A DNA stretch of 64,000 nt from assembly GCF_002797815.1 (NCBI RefSeq), contig NZ_PGFJ01000002.1:248001-312000 (forward strand), written 5' to 3'. The stretch's first letter is position 1. Every line of letters begins with the position of its first letter. Source of the DNA: Mucilaginibacter auburnensis. GTDB taxonomy: Bacteria; Bacteroidota; Bacteroidia; Sphingobacteriales; Sphingobacteriaceae. A program made the position numbers and the translations under genes. The notes below the pieces were generated by a model that worked only from the letters and a program-made list of their open reading frames with translations, searched no databases and was not told the origin of the DNA. Of this stretch, positions 59,995 through 64,000 are shown one piece after another.

Positions 59995-60007
59995 TATAAA
60001 ATAATAT

Positions 60008-61348
60008 ATGGGTATAGTAATAATGGTTGGCCAACTTATACTGGGATTATCTATCCTGGTTATTCTACACGAGTTGGGCCACTTTTTAGCCGCACGGGCT
60101 TTCGGTATCAGGGTTGAAAAATTCTACCTGTTTTTTGATGCCTGGAACTTCAGCTTATTTAAATTTACTTATAAAGACGTTGAGTATGGTATTGGCTGGC
60201 TGCCTTTAGGTGGTTATGTTAAAATTTCGGGAATGATAGATGAGTCTATGGATACCGAACAAATGGCCGGTCCGCCGCAGCCATGGGAGTTCCGCTCAAA
60301 ACCGGCGTGGCAGCGCCTTATTGTAATGATGGGCGGTATTATTGTGAATGTAATACTGGGCATATTCATTTTTTGGATGCTTACCGCCAGATACGGCGAG
60401 ACCTATGTTCCTACAGCCAACATAGAACACGGCATTGTTCCGGGTGTAATTGGCAAAAAAATGGGCCTGCAGGCAGGCGACAGGATCATTGCCGTGAACG
60501 GGCAAGAGGTTGATCGTTTTAGCGATTTACGTAGTACAAAAGTATTATTAGATCACACCGTATTAACTATTAAGCGTGGCGACAAAACGCTTGAAGTTAC
60601 AGTTCCTTCAAACATTATAAATGACCTGGCAGATTACGGTCAGGACGGCTTAGAACAATTTATAAGTAGTTTACCACGCAGCACCTTTACAGTTGGCGAG
60701 ATACAGCCCAATACAGGCGCCGCAAGTGCAGGTTTATTAAAAGGCGATAGCATAGTAAGCATAAACAATAAGCCGGTATTATTTTACGATCAGCTGGTAA
60801 GTGAATTAAAAGCTAATAAAAGTAAAACTGTTGATGTTGGAGTATGGCGAGCAGATTCAACCAAACACCTTACAGCAAAAGTTAGCCCAACCGGTACACT
60901 TGGTTTCCGTGCTGATTTTAATCTTCCTAAACAAGTTACCGTAGATTACGGCGTGGTTGGTTCATTACCTGTTGGCGCTGAAAGAGCCTGGGGCACTTTT
61001 ATTGACAACATTAAAGGTCTGTCAAAAGTATTTAAAGGCGATGTTGAATTGGGTAAAGCTGTTGGTGGTCCTGTGGCTATAGCAACCATGTTTGGTACAG
61101 AGCTTAACTGGATACACTTCTGGACCATGGTAGGCTTCTTATCGATGGTGCTTGCCTTTACCAATCTTTTACCAATACCGGCGCTTGATGGCGGCCATGC
61201 GGTGTTCCTGATCATTGAGATGGTAAAAGGCAAACCACTAAGCGATAAGTTTTTAGAGCGGGCTCAGGTGGTTGGCTTTGTATTGCTGATAACCCTGATG
61301 GTATTTGTATTTGGTAATGATATTATGAAACATGTTATTAATAAATAA
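60008..61348 (+). CDS. rseP: site-2 protease RseP
   Basis: 446 residues, inner membrane. HELGH with His21, Glu22 and His25, GGYVKISGM, two PDZ domains (about 140-205 and 215-290), the LDGG motif in LPIPALDGGHAVF, and a final membrane span. It cleaves membrane-bound anti-sigma factors, for example FecR-type or RseA-type, and signal peptides. Co-transcribed with dxr 13 bp upstream, as in many bacteria, though usually without GH3. Confidence 0.95.
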   Translation: MGIVIMVGQLILGLSILVILHELGHFLAARAFGIRVEKFYLFFDAWNFSLFKFTYKDVEYGIGWLPLGGYVKISGMIDESMDTEQMAGPPQPWEFRSKPAWQRLIVMMGGIIVNVILGIFIFWMLTARYGETYVPTANIEHGIVPGVIGKKMGLQAGDRIIAVNGQEVDRFSDLRSTKVLLDHTVLTIKRGDKTLEVTVPSNIINDLADYGQDGLEQFISSLPRSTFTVGEIQPNTGAASAGLLKGDSIVSINNKPVLFYDQLVSELKANKSKTVDVGVWRADSTKHLTAKVSPTGTLGFRADFNLPKQVTVDYGVVGSLPVGAERAWGTFIDNIKGLSKVFKGDVELGKAVGGPVAIATMFGTELNWIHFWTMVGFLSMVLAFTNLLPIPALDGGHAVFLIIEMVKGKPLSDKFLERAQVVGFVLLITLMVFVFGNDIMKHVINK

Positions 61349-61370
61349 CAGCGTTACACATATTAATAAA

Positions 61371-61412
61371 ACAAAGCGGCCTCCTGGAAAAACCAGGAGG
61401 CCGCTTTGTTTT
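61371..61412. terminator. strong intrinsic terminator after rseP
   Basis: Perfect 17-bp stem ACAAAGCGGCCTCCTGG / CCAGGAGGCCGCTTTGT with a 5-A loop and TTTT. Closes the envelope operon. Confidence 0.92.
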
Positions 61413-61531
61413 AACTGAGATCTGCATTAAACTACAGTACTGAATATCACTTCGCGCCTAAAGGTGTGTGCGTTTACAGCACCGCAAGTAACGCTACATA
61501 GGCTAAAATTTACGGGAAAATTAAAATTAGC

Positions 61532-61637
61532 CGTTTCACCCGTTTCATTTTCGTTTCACTAAAAATCTGCAATTTATTGATTACCAAATTTTTATAAAAA
61601 ATATCGTTTCACATCGTCTCATATGCTCGGTGAAACG
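61532..61637. promoter_or_regulatory. cluster of CGTTTCAC repeats
   Basis: CGTTTCAC at 61532-61539, CGTTTCAT at 61541-61548, CGTTTCAC at 61552-61559 and 61605-61612, CGTCTCAT at 61615-61622, and GTGAAACG (inverted) at 61630-61637. Spacing is about one helical turn. Between rseP and the DUF4199 gene end, 61413-61691 otherwise holds no gene. Function unknown. Confidence 0.65.
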
Positions 61638-61691
61638 GTACGACATGTTTAGCTATAGCTATGAGCTAACAATTAAAGAGCTTTCTGTAGA

Positions 61692-62237
61692 TTATTCCGG
61701 ATCTACGGCGGTATCTAACGGAGAGCGTTCTTTTTTAAAGATAGCAGCGCCAATTAATGACAATAATGCACCAACTATAGTATACATTAATGCCGAGAAA
61801 AACCCACCAGCCCAAGGTCCAATTTTGTTTGCAATACCCATAGAACGTTCAATTTCAGCGTCTGACATACCTCTTGCTTCCATTTGGGCACGAGATGCCT
61901 CCAGTGATTTCTCTAAAACCTCAGGACTCAAAATCCACAAATAGATTGCTATGAATACGCCTAAAAGCAGGCCGGTAAATACAGAGTAACGGAAGCCGGT
62001 TGAGAACCCGGTTCCAAAAGTCATGTATCCACCACCTGTGGTATCTCTAAACTCCTTTTGAGCCAAAAAGAGGAATATGATAAAAGGCAAAAACGATAAA
62101 TACTTAATCGGCGATTGCTGATCAAGGTTCATAAATTCGAAAACGTAAGTTAGCACAATATTGGTAAGAGTGCTTATTAAGGCCCACTTTGTGGCTACCT
62201 TGGTAGGATTAGGGGTGACAGCAGCTTGGTTTTCCAT
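61692..62237 (-). CDS. DUF4199 domain membrane protein
   Basis: 181 residues with about four spans (17-36, 45-60, 75-104, 148-168). GGGYMTFGTGFSTGFRYSVF and EASRAQMEARGMSDAEIERS (loop) match DUF4199, a Bacteroidota family of unknown function. Last gene of a minus-strand run after the acidic protein. Confidence 0.88.
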   Translation of the reverse strand: MENQAAVTPNPTKVATKWALISTLTNIVLTYVFEFMNLDQQSPIKYLSFLPFIIFLFLAQKEFRDTTGGGYMTFGTGFSTGFRYSVFTGLLLGVFIAIYLWILSPEVLEKSLEASRAQMEARGMSDAEIERSMGIANKIGPWAGGFFSALMYTIVGALLSLIGAAIFKKERSPLDTAVDPE

Positions 62238-62255
62238 TTTATATTATTTTAAGGT

Positions 62256-62924
62256 TTAAATAAACGATTGTAGGACAGCAATTACCGGCATGGTAAATTC
62301 TTTATCACTTGCGTTTGCCGCTATCTCCTGCTTCTCTTTTTCGCCGGCATCAGGGTTTTGAAAAAAGCACATCATCGGGTAAAATATCTCTTTCAATTCT
62401 GAATCATCTGATACCTTTTCAGCCACCTTTGCAATTTCAACTACCGGACTTTCCATTAATATCTGGTTAGATATTACAGGCTCGTAAATACGGTACTCGT
62501 CCTGAAACTCGTCTTCGTCAACCAGTAAGAACTCTTTTAGATAGTCTTCCAGTTCGGGTTCGATGTCCTCGTCGGCGCATTCATTCAAATACAACAACAA
62601 GTTAAGCATTTCTGTACCCCTGTCAAGCGTCTCTTCTTCGATATCTTCCCATTCTTTACTATCAAGGTAATCTTCTTCCAGCTTTTTAACGTCGGCGCTA
62701 AAAAAGTTCACCATTAGCAGGTCAAACAATATTTCACGCAAACCTTCCAGTTCAGGGTTATCATCAACAGTTTTATCCAGGGCATCAACTTTACTCAAAA
62801 AGTCCACTTCTAATGAAAAAACTTCTTCTAATTGTTTGGTGAGCTCAGCAGCGTCTGAATTGCTATATTCAGATAAGGCTGCCATAGCTGCCTTAATACC
62901 ATTCTTTACTTTAGGATCTATCAT
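62256..62924 (-). CDS. acidic cytoplasmic protein of unknown function
   Basis: 222 residues from ATG 62924 (MIDPKVKNGIKAAMAALSEY), 5 nt after the dihydroorotase stop; a TTG start at 62945 overlaps that gene. Very acidic, all-helical with leucine-rich periods (LLYLNECADEDIEPELEDYL, FLLVDEDEFQDEY). No family recognised. Middle gene of the run. Confidence 0.65.
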   Translation of the reverse strand: MIDPKVKNGIKAAMAALSEYSNSDAAELTKQLEEVFSLEVDFLSKVDALDKTVDDNPELEGLREILFDLLMVNFFSADVKKLEEDYLDSKEWEDIEEETLDRGTEMLNLLLYLNECADEDIEPELEDYLKEFLLVDEDEFQDEYRIYEPVISNQILMESPVVEIAKVAEKVSDDSELKEIFYPMMCFFQNPDAGEKEKQEIAANASDKEFTMPVIAVLQSFI

Positions 62925-62928
62925 CTCT

Positions 62929-64000
62929 TTAAATATCAGATACAATTGATTGGTTATTATTACAAGTTAGCAAAACTTTACCTGTTAAAGTTTTACCTAA
63001 ATAAGGTGAGTTGGCTGATTTAGATAGGTTATTCTGCCTGTTATACTGCCACTCGACAGCGGTATCCACCACCACCAGATTGGCAACTGAACCTTCGGCG
63101 ATTGTAGCAGCATCAACATTTAATATATCACGTGGATTGATTGCCATTTTTTGAACTATCGTCTGTAATGATAGTCCTGCCTGCAATGCCAAAGAAAAAG
63201 CAGTTTGTAGCGCGATCATGCCATATTCTGCCACTTCAAATTCTACGTCTTTAAATTCTATTTCATGCGGGGTGTGTTGCGTTATTATTGCATCAATAGT
63301 TCCGTCGTTTAAACCCGCTATAAGCGCGTCAACATCATTTTGGGTACGTAGCGGTGGTTTTACCTTATAAAGACTATCAAAGCCCATTAACGCGCTATCA
63401 GTAAGCACCAGGTGATGAACTGCCACATCACAGCTTACCTGTATGCCTTTTTTCTTGGCCTCCCTAATTAGCTCAACCGAGCGTTTTGTTGATATGGTGC
63501 TAAAGTGTATTTTGGAATCAGTGTATTCAGCCAGGTAAAGATCTCTCGCAACTATCAGCTCCTCGGCAAGTGCCGGGATTCCTTTCATGCCTAAAAGCGT
63601 ACTTACTTCGCCTTCGTTAACTTTTGCTTTTCCGGCAATAGCAGGGTCTTCCGGGTAAGAGAATACAAGGGCACTAAAACCTTTGGTGTACAACAGCGCG
63701 CGTTCCATTAGTCCGGCATCACTAACCGGGCGCGTGCCATCTGTAAAAGCTTTGGCGCCGCTCAGGTACATATCGTACATTTCGGCGAGGTCTTTACCCT
63801 CGCGTTTATGCGATATAGTTCCCAAAGGAAAAACATCAACCAGATTGGTCTTTGCCCGGTTAAACAGGTATTCCACCTCGGCCTTTGAGTGGACAGGCGG
63901 CTGCGTGTTAGGCATTAAAGCTAAACCTGTAAAGCCACCGGCTGCAGCGGCCTTTGTACCTGTTTGAAGTGTCTCCTTTGTTTCAAGGCCTAATTCGCCT
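62929..64000 (-). CDS. pyrC: dihydroorotase homologue, partial at right edge
   Basis: The frame is open to the window end, so the N-terminus with the HxH metal motif lies outside. Visible: GLETKETLQTGTKAAAAGGF and TGLALMPNTQPPV, AKAFTDGT where active enzymes have SDDG, SYPEDPAIA in place of the HCED loop, IHFSTIST with one His, and TQHTPHE near the end where active enzymes read TDHAPH. The catalytic Asp is Gln. It may be a non-catalytic PyrC-like partner. The enzyme otherwise closes carbamoyl-aspartate to dihydroorotate in pyrimidine synthesis. Confidence 0.85.
   Translation of the reverse strand, partial: GELGLETKETLQTGTKAAAAGGFTGLALMPNTQPPVHSKAEVEYLFNRAKTNLVDVFPLGTISHKREGKDLAEMYDMYLSGAKAFTDGTRPVSDAGLMERALLYTKGFSALVFSYPEDPAIAGKAKVNEGEVSTLLGMKGIPALAEELIVARDLYLAEYTDSKIHFSTISTKRSVELIREAKKKGIQVSCDVAVHHLVLTDSALMGFDSLYKVKPPLRTQNDVDALIAGLNDGTIDAIITQHTPHEIEFKDVEFEVAEYGMIALQTAFSLALQAGLSLQTIVQKMAINPRDILNVDAATIAEGSVANLVVVDTAVEWQYNRQNNLSKSANSPYLGKTLTGKVLLTCNNNQSIVSDI

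Follow-up and report, generated by a model that had tools for sequence, protein, structure and literature searches.

What are the six short repeats that lie between two genes of Mucilaginibacter auburnensis, and what might bind them? The window, the whole stretch of 64,000 nucleotides that was analysed, corresponds to G000:C2:248001-312000 of a genome (G000) of two contigs and 4.04 Mb; positions below refer to it unless a contig is named. The initial annotation had described five direct and one inverted repeat at 61532-61637 in a 343-nt intergenic gap, and both descriptions hold. The gap is bounded by a gene for an RseP-like protease (plus strand, end at 61348), whose top-ranking relatives in named genomes belong to Mucilaginibacter (best 73%), and a DUF4199 gene (minus strand, end at 61692). 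Each word was found at the position noted, in the window sequence and in the alignment of copies: on the plus strand CGTTTCAC at 61532-61539, CGTTTCAT at 61541-61548, CGTTTCAC at 61552-61559, CGTTTCAC at 61605-61612 and CGTCTCAT at 61615-61622, and on the minus strand CGTTTCAC at 61630-61637, which forms a right-hand inverted repeat with the fifth word. The 45 nt at 61560-61604 are an AT-rich linker, of fixed length according to the copy alignment and the spacing counts. The same gap holds a perfect 21-bp inverted repeat with A/T-rich ends (61367-61413) between the protease gene and the array, which is probably the bidirectional terminator of the protease gene and separate from the array unit. 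Rfam matches in 60000-64000 were all far under the gathering scores and lay at or over the neighbouring terminator.

Taken singly, the word is hardly more frequent than chance would have it: CGTTTCAY occurs eight times in the window against 4.55 expected (100 shuffles, 11 of which reach eight). Five of these occurrences fall within the 106-bp stretch, and the two-word pattern read backwards as a control gave no matches. The objection that such a motif could be equally frequent in random DNA thus nearly holds for the lone word and fails for the clusters. Searching the own genome with 61500-61660 as the query returned 32 places at E <= 8.9e-8, the next best match being at 0.025, and it is because the whole unit recurs 32 times at this level that a chance origin is most strongly disfavoured. 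Most of the matches cover or are bounded by query positions 33-138, i.e. 61532-61637, and because they share these bounds the interval is exactly one repeat unit. The genome-wide scan proposed in the initial annotation therefore yields 32 dispersed copies of the whole unit, nearly all of them 106 bp long and intergenic; none of the 31 copies that could be placed lies inside any heuristically called ORF of at least 70 codons.

All copies follow one layout, three CGTYTCAY words, a linker of fixed length, two further words and one inverted word. The consensus of 31 oriented copies (copy L046 was not placed and hence left out of the 32) reads AAAAT-CGKTTCAC-Y-CGTYTCAT-TTT-CGTTTCAC-T to the left of the AT-rich linker and AAAAATAT-CGTYTCAM-AT-CGTYTCAY-AYNYNCA-RTGARACG-ATG to its right. 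Pairwise identity, averaged over the 28 ungapped copies (L046, L030, L033 and L056 left out), is 91% in the words, 56% in the linker, where 37% is expected from composition, and 26-28% in the outer flanks; therefore selection or copying acts on the words and their spacing. Distances between word starts are nearly invariant among the own copies: 9 (31 counts), 11 (30), 53 (28) and 10 (27) bp. The resulting starts at unit positions 1, 10, 21, 74 and 84 all fall near whole turns of a helix with 10.5 bp per turn, so that all five direct words would lie on one face of the DNA. The helical phasing from which cooperative binding had been proposed is thus well supported by the geometry, the spacing being fixed across copies and also across genomes with different words. 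Two known sites were considered and rejected. parS, the site of ParB, is a palindrome of 16 bp in which two TGTTYCAC half sites abut, whereas the inverted words of the arrays are 6-10 bp apart and the other words are direct; the 22-bp MuA site at the ends of Mu-type transposons, YGTTTCAYTNNAARYRCGAAAR, resembles the own word in its first half, but its CGAAAR half is absent from the aligned consensus.

The linker carries a signal of its own. WATCARNNNNTTR, which we take to be the IHF consensus, is present with at most one mismatch in 24 of 31 linkers, whereas 300 shuffles gave 4.4 on average (largest 9), and in 23 of the 31 the best site stands at one fixed offset, unit positions 51-63. The window copy, with three mismatches by manual count at this offset (61582-61594), is a weak member. 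The reverse strand, on which 12 of 31 linkers match at the same cut, also exceeds the shuffles, so AT-richness combined with symmetry accounts for some of the signal. The linker is thus a putative site for IHF or HU.

Conservation in relatives, likewise proposed as a check, took a particular form: the layout is kept in other Mucilaginibacter genomes and the word is changed. A model (R1) derived from 28 of the 32 copies in the own genome, its matches on these not being independent, was searched in 60 relatives, 36 of them of the same genus, and strong copies turned up in no genome but the own. Its weak matches revealed the same layout with TGATCC in G019 and with TGTCCCA in M. pankratovii (L070). 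Among 149 genus genomes, 18 contain GTGATCC pairs, G019 alone having 27 of them; several pairs have no further words around them, so not all are arrays. The second model (R2) was built from 25 arrays, comprising both word types and L070 (again not independent on those), and 34 of 41 genus genomes have a match to it at E <= 0.05, most of them one to four weak ones. The highest counts, which take in some partial matches on the opposite strand, are those of G019 (63), G137 (62), the own genome and G170 (37 each), G010 (22), G021 (15) and G006 (13). In 20 loci the words were read, and within any one array they agree closely: TGTTTCA in G137 (TGATTCA at one locus), TGTTCCA in G010 with TGTTTCA and TGATTCA variants, and both TGTTTCG and TGTCCCG in G170. 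The distance from the third to the fourth word is 53-54 bp in the own genome (28 counts), G019 (20), G137 (5) and G010 (5) and in five of the seven long spacings of G170, and 54 bp span the linker of L070. The layout varies in its details, the second word of the right pair being mostly absent in G010, and G019 having longer arrays with an additional word pair and a second IHF-like stretch on the left.

A candidate for the protein that reads these words came from comparing the genes at 92 array loci in five genomes, where one family recurs beside the arrays. It encodes a protein of about 380 amino acids consisting of a Pfam AAA_25 ATPase (E 5e-15 to 2e-19) and a C-terminal helix-turn-helix (HTH), and it adjoins an array in four genomes: the own genome, G019, G170 (two copies) and G010. 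The own gene (G000:C2:225265-226374, some 22 kb to the left of the window) has its array upstream at C2:226499, and a second own paralog (C2:381872) has a TGTTACA array of its own on the same plan of pair, 52, pair and inverted word. In G170 one paralog adjoins a TGTTTCG array and the other a TGTCCCG array; in G010, where the family has three members, a TGTTCCA array lies immediately upstream of one (L366), and another has a match to the array model about 0.8 kb away, behind a minisatellite. With paralogs going with other words, each genome would therefore have its own array family. Modelled with AlphaFold2 (25 sequences, mean pLDDT 80, pTM 0.70), the own protein resembles RadA, DnaB, T7 gp4 and KaiC, and the best phage profiles are DNA primase/helicase and DnaB-like helicase. 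The ATPase probably descends from the replication module of a mobile element. A second homologous gene follows 3' of it in five of 30 genus loci, the one tested encoding DUF6371 with a zinc ribbon, and outside the genus, where the family is sporadic, a comparable zinc-ribbon-like reading frame lies downstream in several relatives.

Counting against this candidate, arrays and ATPase do not go together in every genome. G137, with 62 array matches, has no close ATPase relative in a fragmented assembly (best 380 bits), nor was such a gene present in the 30 of its array loci that were fetched; G006, with 13 matches, gave no relative at E <= 1e-20, also in a fragmented assembly. Close ATPases are present in G023 and G033, but these have only 0 and 3 matches to the array model. 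From 59 loci of the family, 55 were used (two unplaced and two too short left out) for a count of over-repeated upstream 6-mers, which were significant in 20 (p <= 0.01, 100 shuffles) and in none of the six from other genera. Some of the 20 are plain tandem repeats (L341, L378, L382), and the own locus L340 was missed (p 0.34) because its word is degenerate. Judged by eye, the upstream words are near the frame [TC]GTNNC[AG]. A recognition-helix code, suggested by eye from three GCA-type words that go with a His in the helix, was rejected, word distance showing no correlation with recognition-helix distance among 16 members (Mantel r 0.07, p 0.25), a result that also counts against the ATPase as partner.

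Other features were observed around the ATPase genes. The palindrome TGACACAAGTGTGTCA stands, exact, just upstream of all four own paralogs (G000:C2:226402, C2:383016, C1:1708928 and C1:1811934), and many family members of other genomes have a similar palindrome in front of them. Elsewhere in the own genome it is found in one region only (L401), as one exact and one 1-mismatch copy at C2:1043455 and C2:1043551; the region adjoins a Clp-protease-type, phage-like gene, and positions 1760-1920 of L401 form a tandem repeat of an approximately 43-bp unit (TTCCGGACTTTCCGACTTGCGGACTT...). An SOS operator was considered and rejected, since the palindrome differs from the LexA-type motifs GGA-N5-TCC and CTAA-N5-TTAG that are given for Bacteroidetes in PMC8565304. 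A minisatellite upstream of the ATPase gene at L341 in G010 has units of roughly 100 bp, each with the palindrome CCGTCCCTTGAAAGGGACGG. At L364 (G002:C1:915616) the ATPase gene is split, 289 amino acids being followed by the C-terminal part about 1.2 kb further, as if after an insertion.

Observed by computation are the family of repeats with its geometry, the replacement of one word by another from genome to genome, and the position of the ATPase gene beside a matching array. To explain them together we favour, with some confidence, a dispersed array family that is read by a word-specific ATPase-HTH, a REPIN-like system with a helicase-type ATPase as its partner. The window unit would be one member of this non-coding family and a protein-binding array, presenting several copies of one 7-8-bp word on one DNA face and an inverted word at one end, and an IHF- or HU-type bend in the fixed linker would join the two word groups, 53 bp apart across it. 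The dedicated RecA-fold ATPase, whose own gene has such an array upstream, would read the array, its C-terminal HTH presumably binding the word. It would have come, probably, from a mobile-element replication module, and the arrays would have spread by a process in which it takes part. A bolder version, which we put forward tentatively as a possibility, is a new two-part system in which a RecA-fold ATPase with a private word is loaded at tens of IHF-bent arrays as an initiator is at an iteron origin, while lineages swap the word genome-wide and keep the sites.

The placement of the copies is relevant to a different explanation, that arrays are chromosome-organising sites of the host, anchors of nucleoid loops or domains at fixed places, with the ATPase-HTH as the host's site-binding protein; matS and RIB sites are thought to have such a role. 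Own copies are indeed spaced more evenly than random, with a smallest gap of 27.6 kb (P 0.0003) and two gaps below 40 kb where 8.4 are expected (P 0.0008). Even spacing is not general, however, since the arrays of G019 are clustered on contig C16, most gaps being 8-28 kb. Dense array regions were seen at 157-364 kb of this contig and at 645-1009 kb of contig C1 of G170; they have at least one array-adjacent gene in common (L230/L308), there may be a preferred chromosomal region for arrays, and dnaA lies on other contigs in both genomes. Gene neighbours also speak for fixed places. Among 134 arrays and 262 neighbour genes of five genomes, taken as best R2 matches first (32 of 32 own places, 41 in G019, 18 in G170, 13 in G010, 30 in G137), 29 of the 257 genes next to an array (ATPase excluded) have a homologue that is also next to an array in another genome, whereas 11 of 532 other genes of the same loci do (Fisher 2e-7), counts that are not fully independent because each pair counts from both sides. 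The arrays so paired have different words. Seven array pairs of G019 and G137 share the gene, the side and the strand, and arrays with three different words lie 104, 96 and 103 bp upstream of mutS in the own genome, G019 and G137, respectively. Linkers of the same-place pairs are nevertheless ordinary, at percentiles 0.42-0.55 of 768 cross pairs in the five of seven pairs that were measurable; therefore the sites either persist or are targeted again. In-place rewriting of words at orthologous arrays was not retained as an explanation, as the linkers do not coincide and repeat targeting is equally possible. In G019 one array separates a gene A from mutS (L223), and in the own genome the two genes adjoin different arrays far apart (L053, L054), which may mark a rearrangement broken at arrays. 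The ordinary linkers, the clustering in G019 and the patchy presence of the ATPase (present in 27 of the 41 genus genomes and, counting the genus, in 18 of 295 genomes of the class) argue against host anchors, and we consider this explanation unlikely.

Still less probable, in our judgement, is an origin of the units as miniature transposable elements that some transposase mobilises, the ATPase gene being merely a frequent neighbour. The units are dispersed, short and intergenic, and the bases just outside their short inverted ends (positions 0 and 107) co-vary, being T-A in 24 and C-G in 4 of 28 copies. Elements of this kind with an IHF site are known: the Correia/NEMIS elements of Neisseria, as described in PMC2229807, are about 105-155 bp long and dispersed, and their long form has an IHF site and is mainly intergenic; the arrays are similar in size, dispersal and intergenic position and carry an IHF-type consensus. 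The same source gives them 24-bp terminal repeats and a target duplication, whereas the arrays have inverted words of 8-10 bp and, read by eye, the aligned flanks of the 31 placed copies show no shared target-site duplication. Nor was a transposase found beside the words. RAYT/REP was rejected as a source, Y1_Tnp being present in 13 of 14 genomes both with and without known arrays and the single own copy being unlinked to the words. Against a mere neighbour stands also the adjoining of arrays and ATPase-HTH paralogs in four genomes.

That the unit is a regulatory or terminator element, either an operator cluster or a hairpin ending the right-hand gene, is very improbable. In its favour, 23 of 31 copies point their right end at the 3' end of a gene, co-directional gaps are 12:1 by orientation (beside 11 convergent and 7 divergent ones; heuristic ORFs, L046 left out), and for two copies the RNA of the strand leaving that gene folds strongly (z -5.3 each). 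Against it, 11 of the 31 lie between convergent genes, the window copy folds poorly (z -1.1) and shows no terminator pattern, and helical phasing and a fixed linker have no role in a terminator. The proposal that the repeats serve the regulator of a gene is not borne out by one of 32 dispersed copies placed in this way. An RNA was also rejected, the Rfam matches being sub-threshold and RNAalifold on 28 copies giving only the right-hand stem (CGTC paired, loop of 7), with one compensatory pair and a covariation term of -0.01.

If the preferred reading of an array family with an ATPase partner is correct, it has relatives among several known systems. Iteron origins with RepA-type helicases, e.g. 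that of RSF1010, combine direct repeats, an AT-rich stretch, an IHF-type site and a RecA-fold hexameric helicase, and the arrays and their candidate partner resemble them in each of these, some ATPase family members being moreover followed by the DUF6371/zinc-ribbon gene. The arrays are, however, chromosomal and dispersed and belong to no replicon, and the recognition domain is fused to the ATPase. The suggestion of plasmid- or phage-like iterons comes closer than that of a regulator, as a replicative-helicase-type ATPase with a DNA-binding tail is the candidate partner, but the locus itself belongs to no plasmid or phage. In E. coli, the RIB/RIP and BIME elements are intergenic composites that include an IHF-type site and are often found at the 3' ends of transcription units. 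Arrays are likewise composite and intergenic with an IHF-type consensus, but they lack REP palindromes, their ends being tandem words and one inverted word, and have a genome-specific word and a dedicated ATPase neighbour. GTAG/CGTC-tagged REPs are described in PMC3733652 as 20-40-bp palindromes with an unpaired tag, the CGTC type having an 8-9-bp stem and a 4-5-nt loop; the array shares with them an intergenic palindrome starting with CGTC and without a linked transposase, and differs in a tag within the stem, the larger loop and a unit of 106 bp.

The closest likeness in logic is to REPIN-RAYT. As outlined in PMC3116915, that system comprises dispersed short extragenic repeats and a resident partner gene next to which a matching repeat lies. 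Shared with it are the dispersed extragenic repeats, the matching repeat beside the partner gene (own genome, G019, twice in G170, G010), the occurrence of several paralogs in a genome, each having a repeat sequence to itself, and conserved recognition parts around a variable spacer. It differs in that a RAYT is a Y1 (HUH) transposase and the partner here an AAA_25 RecA-fold ATPase with an HTH, and in paired REP hairpins where we find phased word arrays with an IHF-type linker. The pairing logic is thus that of REPIN-RAYT with a different partner enzyme, and the arrays, though short, intergenic and composite, lack a defining feature of each of REPIN, RIB and Correia. Neither such arrays nor their pairing with an ATPase were found described in one library of open-access papers. 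The arrays, with the ATPase gene beside a matching one, suggest an undescribed system of repeat and partner protein.

If this is true, dispersed repeats with a resident partner extend beyond the transposase-derived RAYT systems, and a family of helicase-type ATPases has acquired a genome-wide, word-specific role. The change of word at constant geometry, with several paralogs and words per genome, would then be a natural experiment on how a DNA-binding protein changes along with its dozens of sites, and both parts, arrays and ATPase, could be tested in an ordinary soil bacterium.
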